The notes under the pieces: generated by a model
The model's input: only the letters and a program-made list of their open reading frames with translations
What the model was told of the DNA's origin: nothing
Database searches by the model: none
Assembly (NCBI RefSeq): GCF_944388365.1
Contig: NZ_CALXIN010000007.1
Location: forward strand, 1-56,043
Direction: 5' to 3'
Length of the DNA stretch: 56,043 nt
Source of the DNA: an uncultured Negativibacillus sp.
GTDB lineage: Bacteria > Bacillota > Clostridia > Oscillospirales > Ruminococcaceae
Shown here: positions 35,126 to 38,917 of the stretch, piece by piece
Layout: each line of letters begins with the position of its first letter
Position numbering within the stretch: position 1 is the first letter of the stretch
Made by a program: the position numbers and the translations under genes

Positions 35126-37108
35126 TTAGTCGTTGATGTGGACGGTGGAAATGCTGTTGACATCCTCTTTGATGAGGGTGCTGTCGTTCTTTCCGTATTC
35201 CAGCAGCATCAGGTTGTACTGGGTCTGTGGCTCGCTGCTCTGCTCCTCACCGGATTCGCCGATGGTTGGCTCTGGAGTTACCTCCACCTTGACCAGATAG
35301 TACAGGCCATCGCTGGTTGCCTGTGCATCCACAACATCGGAGGAAATGCGTTTTGGATTGCTTCTGTTTTCCAGCGATTTGGAGTAGAGGCTTCCATCCT
35401 CCGAAATGAAGTAGATCAGATTACCGTCGTTGTTGATGCCGGCCAGAGTCAGGTCGCCGACATTTTCCAGTACAGTGATGTTGTCTTCATTTTCGAACTG
35501 TTTGAGGACCAGTGTCTGCTGGGTTTCCTCGACGATGTCTCCGCTGCCGGCAGTGATATATCCGACCTGAGAGCTTTCATCAGAAGCCTTATCCTCTACC
35601 GATTCATTCAGAGAGATGGTTTCTGGCTCTTCCATGCTGCCCAGGGTGTAGCGGTACAGCTCGGTTCCACGGCTCCAGTACAGATAATTGTTGGTAGCGG
35701 TGGCAAAGGTGATGTCGCTGTTGAAGGAGTAGTTGCTGACATCATAGAAGTTCTCGCAGATAACAGCGCCCTGCATGCCGCTGTCACCGATGGTAGCAGC
35801 CTCGGCAGAGGAAACACAGAGATTGCCCTGACCGTCGATGTAGTGAACCTGTCCGGCATACAGCGGCTGATCGTGTTCAAAATTGGAGGACATCTCGCTG
35901 GAAGTCATGTCACGGCCATTTTCGTTCATCCAGCCGGAGGAACGCAGCGAGGAGTCGATGAGCGAAACGACATTATCTGCTACCTTTTCGACAGGATTAG
36001 TCTGAGGACCATACAGGTAAGCGCTGCCGATTGGATTGGTTGCGTTTGCTTCCAGGTCACAGTCGGCGAGGATTGCCATTGTGCCGTCGTCATACAGAAC
36101 AGCTTCGGTGATCTTCGACGCCAGAGGTGTCAGCTCTGCGGTATCCAGGTCGGAAACACGGTAGAAGTTGACAAGGTGAGTGTCAGCATCTGCATCCATG
36201 ACAAAAACATCCTGATCGGAGATGTTAAAGATGCTGTAGCTGCTGTCCAACAGATGGAGGGTTCCATTATAGAAGTAGCCACCTGCGACAGTATTCATAT
36301 CATCGTCAAGCTGAAGCACCTGAAGCAGGCTGTCATCCGAAGAAGCTTTGACTACGACGATGTTTTCTTCACCTACAATCTCGGATACCGGTGTCAGTTC
36401 GCCGTCTTTGTAGCGGGTCTGTACCAGTTTGTCGTCCACCATTTTGTTGTAGTAGACCGAGTTATCACCATGGCAGTAGATCAGGCTGGCGTTTTCGTCC
36501 AGTACCTTTTCTTCGCCGGAAGCAGTCTTTAAGCAGAGCTTGCCTTCGGTATCCTGAACGGAGGTGACGTCCAGCGGAACATAGACGAGATCTCCGTTTT
36601 CCAGCTCACAGTAGTTCTGGTAGCCGAAGTAGGAAGCGGAGGCGGAAATCATCTGGGAAACAGTGGCGCGATTTTCTTCACCCTGTGCAGCATTGATGTA
36701 CAGATCGAGCGCTTCTCCGTTGCGGACGATGCCGACGCTGTCGTCGCTGGCATAGGAGATGGAGGTTGGATTGAAGTGATCCTCGGCGCTGACTGTTTGA
36801 GTTTGACCAAACTGGGTCATTGCATAGGCTGCAGCAGCAATGACAACGACAACCGCTGCGATGGTCCATGGCAGCCACTTGCGGGACTTTTTAGACTTAT
36901 CAGCTGCAGCGCTGCTCTTTGGAGCTTTTGGCTTTTCAGGAGAGGAAACGGTTTTATCGGTCGGCTCGGATGCTTCGGAGGATGGCTCCACCGATGTTTG
37001 TGCATCAGCCTCCGACGGCTGCACCGGCTGTCCGCAGGAAGGGCAGACGCCTTTGCTTTCTTCTAATTCAGCGGCGGAAATCTCTTTGCCGCATAAGCTA
37101 CATTTCAT
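35126..37108 (-). CDS. zinc-ribbon membrane protein with large extracytoplasmic domain
   Basis: The protein has about 660 residues. A cytoplasmic zinc ribbon (C3-x2-C6, C22-x2-C25) is followed by a Pro/Ser/Lys-rich linker (30-78) and one membrane helix (about 82-104). The outer region of about 550 residues is made of short beta-strand repeats alternating with acidic turns, such as LENGDLVYVPLD and NDGNLIYFISEDGSLYSK, which looks like a beta-propeller. The ATG at 37108 is 14 bases from AAAGG; GTG 37123 is an alternative start. Its ribbon-helix-outer-domain plan matches the protein at 306-1115. Function unknown; sensing or scaffolding at the surface is a guess. Confidence 0.65.
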   Translation of the reverse strand: MKCSLCGKEISAAELEESKGVCPSCGQPVQPSEADAQTSVEPSSEASEPTDKTVSSPEKPKAPKSSAAADKSKKSRKWLPWTIAAVVVVIAAAAYAMTQFGQTQTVSAEDHFNPTSISYASDDSVGIVRNGEALDLYINAAQGEENRATVSQMISASASYFGYQNYCELENGDLVYVPLDVTSVQDTEGKLCLKTASGEEKVLDENASLIYCHGDNSVYYNKMVDDKLVQTRYKDGELTPVSEIVGEENIVVVKASSDDSLLQVLQLDDDMNTVAGGYFYNGTLHLLDSSYSIFNISDQDVFVMDADADTHLVNFYRVSDLDTAELTPLASKITEAVLYDDGTMAILADCDLEANATNPIGSAYLYGPQTNPVEKVADNVVSLIDSSLRSSGWMNENGRDMTSSEMSSNFEHDQPLYAGQVHYIDGQGNLCVSSAEAATIGDSGMQGAVICENFYDVSNYSFNSDITFATATNNYLYWSRGTELYRYTLGSMEEPETISLNESVEDKASDESSQVGYITAGSGDIVEETQQTLVLKQFENEDNITVLENVGDLTLAGINNDGNLIYFISEDGSLYSKSLENRSNPKRISSDVVDAQATSDGLYYLVKVEVTPEPTIGESGEEQSSEPQTQYNLMLLEYGKNDSTLIKEDVNSISTVHIND

Positions 37109-37324
37109 TGGTACAGGACACACCTTTCTTTATAATCCTTTTTGCAGGAAATCTGCATACCAAGCTATTATAGCGGATATTTGTGGAAAAGGCTAGACAC
37201 GATCTATGAATTTTCTTTCAGAATAACTAAAATGTTTTGTAAAAAGAAAGCAAAGTTTCCACACGTAAACAAACAAGAATCAGCTTTTATTTTTGTGAAT
37301 AATCATGAAAGAAAGACAAGCTCA

Positions 37325-37353
37325 TTCACCTTAAGAAAAAGGTATGTTATAAT
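37325..37353 (+). promoter_or_regulatory. extended -10 promoter of the sigma-54-like gene
   Basis: TTCACC (37325-37330), 17 bases and TATAAT (37348-37353), with TG one base upstream of the -10. The leader is about 75 nt. Confidence 0.5.
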
Positions 37354-37433
37354 AAATGTAAATAAATCGAAGAATTTGCGCCTTTTATAATGAGATGGGG
37401 CGTTGTCAAACAACAATCAGAGGTGAACAAAAG

Positions 37434-38876
37434 ATGGATGCTCACAAAGAAACTGTCAGTGCAAGACAGCTGAAAATATTGAAGATGGATACACAGCGGC
37501 TCAATGAGTACCTCAATGAGGTGATGCTGGAAAATCCGGTCATCGAAATCGAAGAAAACCTGACCGGCTATACCGATGAGGACCTGCGCGCCCGCAAGGC
37601 AGCCTGGCTGGAGTCCAACGACTTTGAGGAAGGTCTGGGCTACTTTGACAAGGAGACCGAGCTGCCGGAGGTGGACGAGCCGGACTATGCGCTGCTCAAC
37701 ACCGGAGAGAGCAAGACACTGGGGGATCATCTGCGCGCTCAGCTGGCAGAACAGAAGATGGACCCGCGGGTTCGCAGTGCGGCGGAGTATCTGATCGGAT
37801 GTCTGGATGAAAACGGCTACCTGCTGGCACAGGAACAGGATCTGATCGAACAGGGATACGGTGAATCCGAATTTGAAGAAGCGCTGGCAGTCATCCATTC
37901 GCTGGAACCGCTGGGTGTTGGTGCATCCAGCCTGAAGGAATGTCTGTGTATGCAGCTGGATGAAGAGGACGAGCTGGCAAAGACACTGCTGGAGGAAATG
38001 GACCTGACCGGAAGTGTGGACGTTTTGCAGATGGTGCAGAAATCGGGCAAAACACAGCAGGAGATTGAACAGGCGATGCTGCGCATCCGTCAGCTCAATC
38101 CAAAGCCAGGTTCCCAGTACAGCAGCCACAGCCGTTCGCCTTACATCCTGCCCGATGTGGTGATGATTAAATTTGTCAACGAATATTACGTTGCACTCAA
38201 CGATTTTTCTTTCCCTGAGATTAAAATTAACGAGGAATACCAGAACATGCTTCGTCGTGCCCAGGGACCGGATCACCGTGAGGAACGGGAGTATCTGGAG
38301 GCAAAGATGGCCGATGCAAGAGCATTGCAGCAAGAAATAGATTTCCGTGGACACACACTGGTGGAGGTTACCAAGGCGCTGATTAAGATGCAGGAGCCAT
38401 TCTTCCGCTATGGCCCTCGCTATATGAAGCTGCTGCCGATTCAGGAGCTGGCAGATGCGCTGGGAATGGAGCAGGAGATCGTTTCGGCAACGATGAAAAA
38501 TAAATACCTGCAGTCTCCGTTCGGCGTCTACCCGATGAAGTTCTTCCTGGCAAGAGAACACAATCCACAGCAGGCGGGCATGGAGGCGATCCGCGAACAG
38601 CTTCAGCAGCTGATCAAAGAGGAGCATCCCGATGATCCATACAGCGATGAACAGCTGATGCAGATGATGGCGCAGGATGGCGTCTTTATGACCGAAGAGA
38701 TGATCGAGCGTCTGCGCGAGGAAATGAACATTCCAGACAGCGAGCACCGCATCTTCTACCGTCCAGGAGAAGAAGAGGACGAGTGTGACTGTGAGGATGA
38801 GGATTGCGGCTGTCACCACGACCACGAGGACTGCGGCTGTCACCATGACCATAACTGCGGCTGCCACCACGAATAA
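37434..38876 (+). CDS. divergent RpoN (sigma-54)-like protein with His/Cys-rich tail
   Basis: The protein has 480 residues. Region I is short (RQLKILKMDTQRLNEYLNEV and ENPVIEIE) and lacks the usual Gln-rich first dozen residues. The core-binding region (about 90-300) keeps LDENGYLL, LEPLGVGASSLKECL and INEEYQNML. The DNA-binding end keeps KYLQSPFGVY (357-366), but the RpoN box (normally ARRTVAKYRE) reads TEEMIERLRE at 420-429. Residues 451-480 are three repeats of C-G-C-H-H-D-H type. It still resembles RNA polymerase factor sigma-54, but promoter recognition is doubtful. ATG 37434 follows AGAGGTG. No enhancer-binding protein is nearby. Confidence 0.75.
   Translation: MDAHKETVSARQLKILKMDTQRLNEYLNEVMLENPVIEIEENLTGYTDEDLRARKAAWLESNDFEEGLGYFDKETELPEVDEPDYALLNTGESKTLGDHLRAQLAEQKMDPRVRSAAEYLIGCLDENGYLLAQEQDLIEQGYGESEFEEALAVIHSLEPLGVGASSLKECLCMQLDEEDELAKTLLEEMDLTGSVDVLQMVQKSGKTQQEIEQAMLRIRQLNPKPGSQYSSHSRSPYILPDVVMIKFVNEYYVALNDFSFPEIKINEEYQNMLRRAQGPDHREEREYLEAKMADARALQQEIDFRGHTLVEVTKALIKMQEPFFRYGPRYMKLLPIQELADALGMEQEIVSATMKNKYLQSPFGVYPMKFFLAREHNPQQAGMEAIREQLQQLIKEEHPDDPYSDEQLMQMMAQDGVFMTEEMIERLREEMNIPDSEHRIFYRPGEEEDECDCEDEDCGCHHDHEDCGCHHDHNCGCHHE
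38784..38873 (+). repeat. in-frame repeats encoding the His/Cys tail
   Basis: Three imperfect copies of a unit of about 27 bases, each containing TGCGGCTG(T/C)CACCA, encode the D-C-G-C-H-H-D-H motif. The cysteines and histidines could bind several zinc, copper or nickel ions. Confidence 0.75.
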
Positions 38877-38885
38877 AGGCATAAG

Positions 38886-38917
38886 AAAAACCCCGACTTG
38901 TTCAAGTCGGGGTTTTT
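38886..38917 (+). terminator. terminator after the sigma-54-like gene
   Basis: A 14-bp stem with a GTTC loop (38886-38899 / 38904-38917) ends in T5. The A-run on the left also allows function on the minus strand for the DUF1667 gene. Confidence 0.85.

Follow-up and report, generated by a model that had tools for sequence, protein, structure and literature searches.

What does a sigma-54 factor do when the parts that read its promoters have been rewritten and no activator for it is found in its genus? In textbook accounts sigma-54 depends strictly on an AAA+ activator, and the question is raised by a gene on a contig of an uncultured Negativibacillus sp. (NZ_CALXIN010000007.1, assembly GCF_944388365.1), of which positions 1 to 56,043 of the forward strand were analysed; this whole stretch of 56,043 nucleotides is called the window. 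The gene (37434..38876, plus strand, like all its features given below) encodes a sigma-54 (RpoN) homologue of 480 amino acids, which starts with an ATG at 37434 and runs in frame to its stop codon. A first-pass annotation, made from the letters of the sequence, took it for a repurposed factor with a kept core-binding region, a trimmed region I, a lost RpoN box and an added metal-binding-like tail. Here we describe how widely this form occurs and which of its parts are conserved, and we propose, at a probability of about 0.45, that it is a sigma-54-derived, metal-gated factor that would block RNA polymerase and likely no longer initiates transcription at -24/-12 promoters.

The protein scores above the cut-offs of all three sigma-54 Pfam domains: the core-binding domain with 158 bits, the DNA-binding domain with 117.9 bits and the activator-interacting domain, which is truncated to positions 20-46 of the 46 in the profile, with 26.8 bits against a cut-off of 23.8. 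The curated NCBIfam model TIGR02395 (RpoN) yields 291.1 bits (cut-off 277.35), and the nearest canonical relatives are Anaerotruncus-type proteins. Domains of the sigma-70-type extracytoplasmic function (ECF) factors were not seen in the protein, which carries sigma-54 domains and the predicted fold. The structure model reached a predicted template modelling score of 0.47 and a mean predicted local distance difference test value of 76, and for this reason the relative placement of its domains was not used.

Conservation was assessed by counting alignment cells at sites where 112 canonical proteins show a conservation of 90% or more. The tailed proteins comprise the subclade of the window (subclade A, 13 proteins), five intermediates (P0017, P0019, P0020, P0022 and P0024) and a subclade B (G001, G004, G005, P0042 and P0043), which accounts for three of the six genomes of the genus. 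In the subclade of the window the canonical residue is kept in 52/52 cells of region I (helices at residues 10-40, 37461..37553), 223/234 cells of the core-binding domain (residues 92-269, 37707..38240), 44/52 cells of the extra-long-helix region (helix at residues 279-319, 38268..38390) and 89/117 cells of the remaining C-terminal part. While these parts are kept, the two promoter readers are altered, with 27/65 canonical cells in the -12 recognition helix (residues 347-358, 38472..38507) and 20/91 in the RpoN box (residues 420-429, 38691..38720). The box reads TEEMIERLRE instead of the canonical ARRTVAKYRE, and both arginines are replaced, by Glu or Asp, in all 13 proteins. Likewise, the -12 helix of the window protein reads EQEIVSA instead of (H)ESTVSR; EIVSA thus stands in place of STVSR, the subclade has E-I/L/V-V-S-A or a close variant, and the arginine is again replaced in 13/13. 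The intermediates follow the same pattern (-12 helix 6/25, box 12/35). In subclade B the -12 helix is altered (10/25 kept) and more of the box is retained (25/35), so that the box replacement claimed in the first-pass annotation holds for the window protein and its subclade, but not for the half of the genus genomes in which most of the box survives. No part of the protein is more conserved in the nearest canonical group than the box (identity 0.95) and the -12 helix (0.83); within the subclade of the window the box stands at 0.82 and the -12 helix, at 0.69, is among the least conserved.

The surroundings of the readers changed as well. The RpoN (-24) domain (residues 380-440, 38571..38753) is predicted to keep its fold, yet it is acidic: canonical proteins carry a mean net charge of +3.4 here, the subclade one of -9.3, the intermediates -8.2 and subclade B -3.8. 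Behind the altered box lies a new motif, IPDSEHRIFYRP (residues 433-444, 38730..38765), of the general form IPDS-E/D-HRIFY-x-P, which is conserved in the subclade, occurs in none of the canonical proteins and could be a new binding site. At the other end, residues 1-9 form a short start that is poor in leucine and glutamine. All 13 proteins of the subclade have a segment of 15 residues before the first conserved leucine of region I, and 20 tailed proteins have one of 15-23; the median of 88 canonical proteins is 25. These lengths rest on predicted start codons; the clusters P0001-P0003 share the start residue of the window protein. Leucine and glutamine together make up 2.5 residues of this segment on average, compared to 8.1 in canonical proteins. 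The trimming of region I is thus borne out, and it concerns the end that canonical sigma-54 has pulled into the central pore of the activator ring (PMC12054792). R305, which by counting along the sequence alignment is the counterpart of R336 of enteric sigma-54, is retained in 23/23 tailed proteins.

The window belongs to the genus of Negativibacillus massiliensis, and each of the six genomes of this genus holds one tailed sigma-54, a recurrence that rules out chance or an assembly error. A second, canonical rpoN was sought and not found in any of them, with a single PF04552 match per genome. Among the clusters listed for the best 120 of 214 homologues (scored candidates being the 7994 that share most words), 23 also combine tail and altered box, some of them near copies. 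In the family, 34/297 genomes have a PF04552 match at E<=1e-10, five from the genus and 29 others; rpoN was readable in 25 of the latter, and here both box arginines are kept in 25/25 and the Cys/His tail is absent from all 25 loci. Altered box and tail are therefore confined to one genus among the rpoN genes read, and the proposal of a repurposed factor is well supported. An order-wide comparison is impossible, because no sigma-54 match above 23.2 bits came up in 24 genomes of the order that belong to other families. As the genomes are related, the counts for genus and family are not independent trials. The alignment leaves aside the rpoN genes of G079, G106, G168 and G198, the second copy of G237, the fragment L042 and P0012, as well as twelve fragmentary, fused or near-duplicate representatives from P0001-P0120 (P0004, P0015, P0016, P0018, P0021, P0023, P0025, P0045, P0050, P0057, P0083 and P0092); P0042 and P0043 were assigned to subclade B.

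The genus appears to lack the partner of sigma-54, too. No activator is encoded near the gene, as had been noted before, and none was found elsewhere in the genome of the window; at E<=1e-20, a PF00158 activator was found in none of the six genus genomes, an absence that is only as good as the completeness of the draft assemblies (three are below 95%, at 87, 77 and 94; N. massiliensis is 99% complete in 8 contigs). By the same measure an activator is present in 26/29 other sigma-54-bearing genomes of the family and in 0/15 genomes without sigma-54. The three exceptions are G168, with a partial sigma-54 match, G184 and G229. A GAFTGA-coding pattern gave no match in the six genus genomes or in G184 and G229, and eight matches in four activator-bearing relatives (reversed control 2), five of which lie inside PF00158 matches. 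A hidden activator in the genome of the window was considered and rejected: its five PF00158 matches, of at most 31 bits, fall in ClpB, YifB, an MgsA/RarA-type protein and a ClpC-type Clp ATPase, whose gene has two of them and was scanned at one locus. In the remaining five genomes of the genus the weak matches reach at most 32.3 bits. The strict promoter motif YTGGCAC-N5-TTGCW, a scan blind to weaker or lineage-specific -24/-12 motifs, shows no clear excess in the six genus genomes, with 11 hits compared to 8 of the reversed pattern; ten activator-bearing relatives contain 32 against 6, 16 of the 32 lying no more than 3 kb from an activator match, and three genomes without sigma-54 contain 2 against 3. 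What the first-pass annotation had named as its refutation, a degenerate box and tail typical of functional RpoN across the order along with ordinary promoters and activators in this genome, did not hold for the rpoN genes read. The missing activators throughout the genus, the rewritten -12 helix and the reversed charge of the C-terminal domain go beyond the first-pass annotation.

The added tail (residues 447-480, 38772..38873) consists of 34 residues rich in Cys, His, Asp and Glu, including 8 Cys and 8 His, and is predicted to be disordered. Earlier described as three CGCHHDH repeats in 30 residues, which was nearly right, it contains two full repeats (at 458 and 467) and a third that is shortened to CGCHH (475). 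Repeat number varies, and P0001, which is 98% identical to the window protein, has more. In the six genus genomes the pattern C-G/D-C-x-H-D/E-H matches 29 times and its reversed control not at all; G003 contributes no sigma-54 tail match, because its tail differs. By position, ten matches belong to sigma-54, 18 to clusters at the N-terminal end of a Cd/Zn-type heavy-metal P-type ATPase and one to another Cys-rich protein of G001; the ATPase assignment was made via translated members of the clusters, 8/29 matches having been translated around. For the ATPase in the genome of the window, the Cd-type and heavy-metal models gave strong matches, with scores below the cut-offs because only a fragment was scored. 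Mainly because the repeat is common to the tail and to the heavy-metal ATPase of the genus, the tail is called putatively metal-binding. A GTPase of CobW-like appearance carries the pattern in two canonical relatives. As a separate observation, the loci L156 (G002:C1:1661250-1661666), L170 (G000:C34:15121-15375), L175 and L165 encode heavy-metal P-type ATPases with many Cys/Gly/His/Asp/Glu repeats at the N-terminus, of the same unit type as in the sigma-54 tail.

How might such a protein act? Region I and the extra-long helix shut the polymerase cleft in the canonical holoenzyme, and region II and the core-binding domain fill the DNA and RNA channels of the polymerase (PMC7057263); sigma-54 has itself been portrayed as a protein built for inhibiting RNA polymerase (PMC4551910). 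The blocking parts, region I, the extra-long helix, region II and the core-binding domain, are kept in the tailed protein, while the parts that find promoters and release the block are altered or were not found. We infer that the protein would bind core RNA polymerase and hold it in the blocked state of sigma-54, so that blocked polymerase would be the end product. Metal at the tail would switch this binding on or off, in a manner similar to that proposed for the ECF factors OrbS, CorE and CorE2. Since a change of R336 permits activator bypass (PMC7057263) and the counterpart is kept throughout, the protein does not correspond to the known bypass form. It would perhaps represent a new class, a sigma factor turned into a stand-alone metal-gated polymerase inhibitor that kept the autoinhibitory half and discarded readers and activators, a classification that we consider quite conceivable, though short of probable.

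The gene is under purifying selection. In five genus genomes (the cut copy of G004 was left out), residues 1-440 show 0.14-0.17 non-synonymous (dN) and 1.25-2.48 synonymous (dS) substitutions per site in four genome pairs (Nei-Gojobori method), and the RpoN domain 0.13-0.19 and 1.22-1.62; the resulting dN/dS ratios of 0.07-0.13 and 0.08-0.14 are rough, because dS is near saturation. Five of the six genus copies are full-length frames, and the sixth (G004) is interrupted by a contig end. In a tree of 53 alignment rows (P0024, L013 and others were left out), subclade A and the intermediates form a single supported clade (100/100). Subclade B falls, on a long branch and with weak support (85/64), beside Anaerotruncus-type canonical proteins in the free tree; the approximately unbiased test does not reject one common origin for the tailed proteins (p-AU 0.485, log-likelihood 0.56 lower). 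Should B be the sister group, the part of the box that it keeps would point to activator loss and tail gain before -24 reading was fully lost.

Several points weigh against a metal-gated polymerase blocker. That the protein binds core polymerase, inhibits transcription, binds metal and takes metal as its signal is in each case inferred from sequence. Purifying selection on the RpoN domain shows that the C-terminal end still does something. Subclade B, with 25/35 box cells and a positive box charge, may still bind DNA. Region I, the site of action of activators, is intact except for its shortened start. In favour of the blocker, region II (residues 41-90, 37554..37703), a presumed blocking part, is more conserved than the core-binding domain in the subclade (0.80 vs 0.70), compared to 0.61 vs 0.58 and 0.66 vs 0.78 in two canonical groups; by these identities its relative rise is real but modest. 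Finally, G184 and G229 have canonical boxes yet no detected activator, and the absence of an activator alone is thus no proof of repurposing.

The most serious alternative is a working sigma factor with a new promoter specificity, which would need no AAA+ activator and would be switched by metal at its tail, in the way of OrbS, CorE and CorE2 from the unrelated ECF class. We consider it unlikely. It is hardest to set aside in subclade B, where most of the box is kept, but it sits poorly with the acidic C-terminal domain in the subclade of the window and with the retention of the block-imposing region I and of the R336 counterpart; moreover, the published bypass forms still require a preformed bubble (PMC7057263). 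The repeat shared with the heavy-metal ATPase would also fit a metal-storage or metal-delivery protein for which the sigma-54 body serves as a scaffold, without any action on polymerase. Such a scaffold would have no need of the conserved core-binding cells, nearly all of which are kept, and this explanation is improbable. Still less credible is a functionally canonical sigma-54 with a promoter variant and an activator that lies outside PF00158 or is missing from the assemblies. Most of the protein is conserved, it passes the RpoN cut-off of NCBI, and genes can be missed in draft genomes; but six genomes concur, including the nearly complete N. massiliensis, both DNA readers are changed, and the GAFTGA-coding pattern was found in none of the six. 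A decaying gene, an option of the first-pass annotation that would agree with the lack of a sigma-54 match (E<=1e-10) in 263/297 genomes of the family, is rejected as very improbable, because purifying selection (dN/dS about 0.1) and the conservation of the new box contradict it, as do the full-length frames and the gained tail.

The polymerase blocker proposed here resembles several known systems in part. With canonical sigma-54 it shares the domains, the predicted fold, the region I helices, the core-binding domain and the extra-long helix; it differs in the rewritten box and -12 helix, the short segment gripped by the activator, the Cys/His tail, the acidic C-terminal domain in the subclade of the window and the lack of an activator found in the genus. 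The rpoN genes of Neisseria (RLS and forms without the helix-turn-helix) also combine altered DNA readers with a genome devoid of an obvious activator (PMC3162934, PMC6755734), but they are frameshifted, truncated or lack the helix-turn-helix and are judged inactive, as detailed in PMC6755734, whereas the tailed sigma-54 is intact, selected and extended. OrbS, CorE and CorE2 carry a Cys-rich C-terminal extension proposed to be their own metal sensor, responding to iron (OrbS), or to copper or cadmium and zinc (CorE and CorE2) (PMC9023288); as sigma-70 superfamily members that initiate transcription, they contrast with a sigma-54 with lost promoter readers. Laboratory bypass variants (region I deletion, R336A) are likewise sigma-54 proteins considered without an activator (PMC4551910, PMC7057263), yet there the lock is removed and the DNA readers are kept, the reverse of the tailed family.

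According to a 2025 survey of >1,400 organisms, sigma-54 and activator always occur together (PMC12316311). Schaefer et al. state that bacteria with rpoN but without a cognate activator had not been found, and suggest that the earliest function of sigma-54 may have been global repression of transcription (PMC4551910); according to Francke et al., Neisseria is an exception without an activator, where sigma-54 is inactive (PMC3162934). No description of the tailed family was found in the literature searched, a search whose coverage excluded most subscription journals and preprints. A genus that keeps an intact, selected sigma-54 with rewritten DNA readers and no activator found is a natural system for testing the effect of sigma-54 on RNA polymerase once initiation has been removed. 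It also sets an annotation trap, as the tailed protein passes the curated NCBI cut-off for RpoN.

Further features lie at the borders of the gene. A Shine-Dalgarno-like GAGGTG (37420..37425) precedes the start codon. A weak candidate housekeeping promoter (37325..37353; TTCACC-17-TATAAT, with TG before the second hexamer) matches 10/12 positions and is no evidence by itself, because one site was found against a mean of 1.9 in shuffled sequences. Downstream, a terminator-like hairpin ending in a T run (38886..38917) was not among the matches of a pattern scan, and the segment 38877-38925 folds at -25.1 kcal/mol. The genes around the sigma-54 homologue were examined and gave no lead on function. 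The divergent neighbour (35126-37123, minus strand; 665 aa) carries two CxxC pairs close to its N-terminus and matched no family, and a neighbour of this type adjoins the sigma-54 gene in G000, G002 and G003.

Other members of the family offer observations of their own. The sigma-54 of G184 (locus L044) and the cluster P0056 have the canonical-type box SRRTVIQYRE, a short region I start and the C-terminus AHSHSS; the genome of G184, 96% complete, has no detected activator, and the two perhaps represent an early stage of the same loss. G229 (locus L049; 91% complete) has a canonical rpoN and no detected activator, although its searched congeners do have one. An rpoN match with an in-frame TGA in G198 (G198:C16:20853-21140), where the best activator match reaches 81 bits, is possibly part of a decaying sigma-54 system. 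The sigma-54 genes of G079 (C1:3071694-3072892) and G106 (C5:125662-126859) directly adjoin a frame of about 950 aa that holds an activator-type AAA+ match and is probably of the LevR type.
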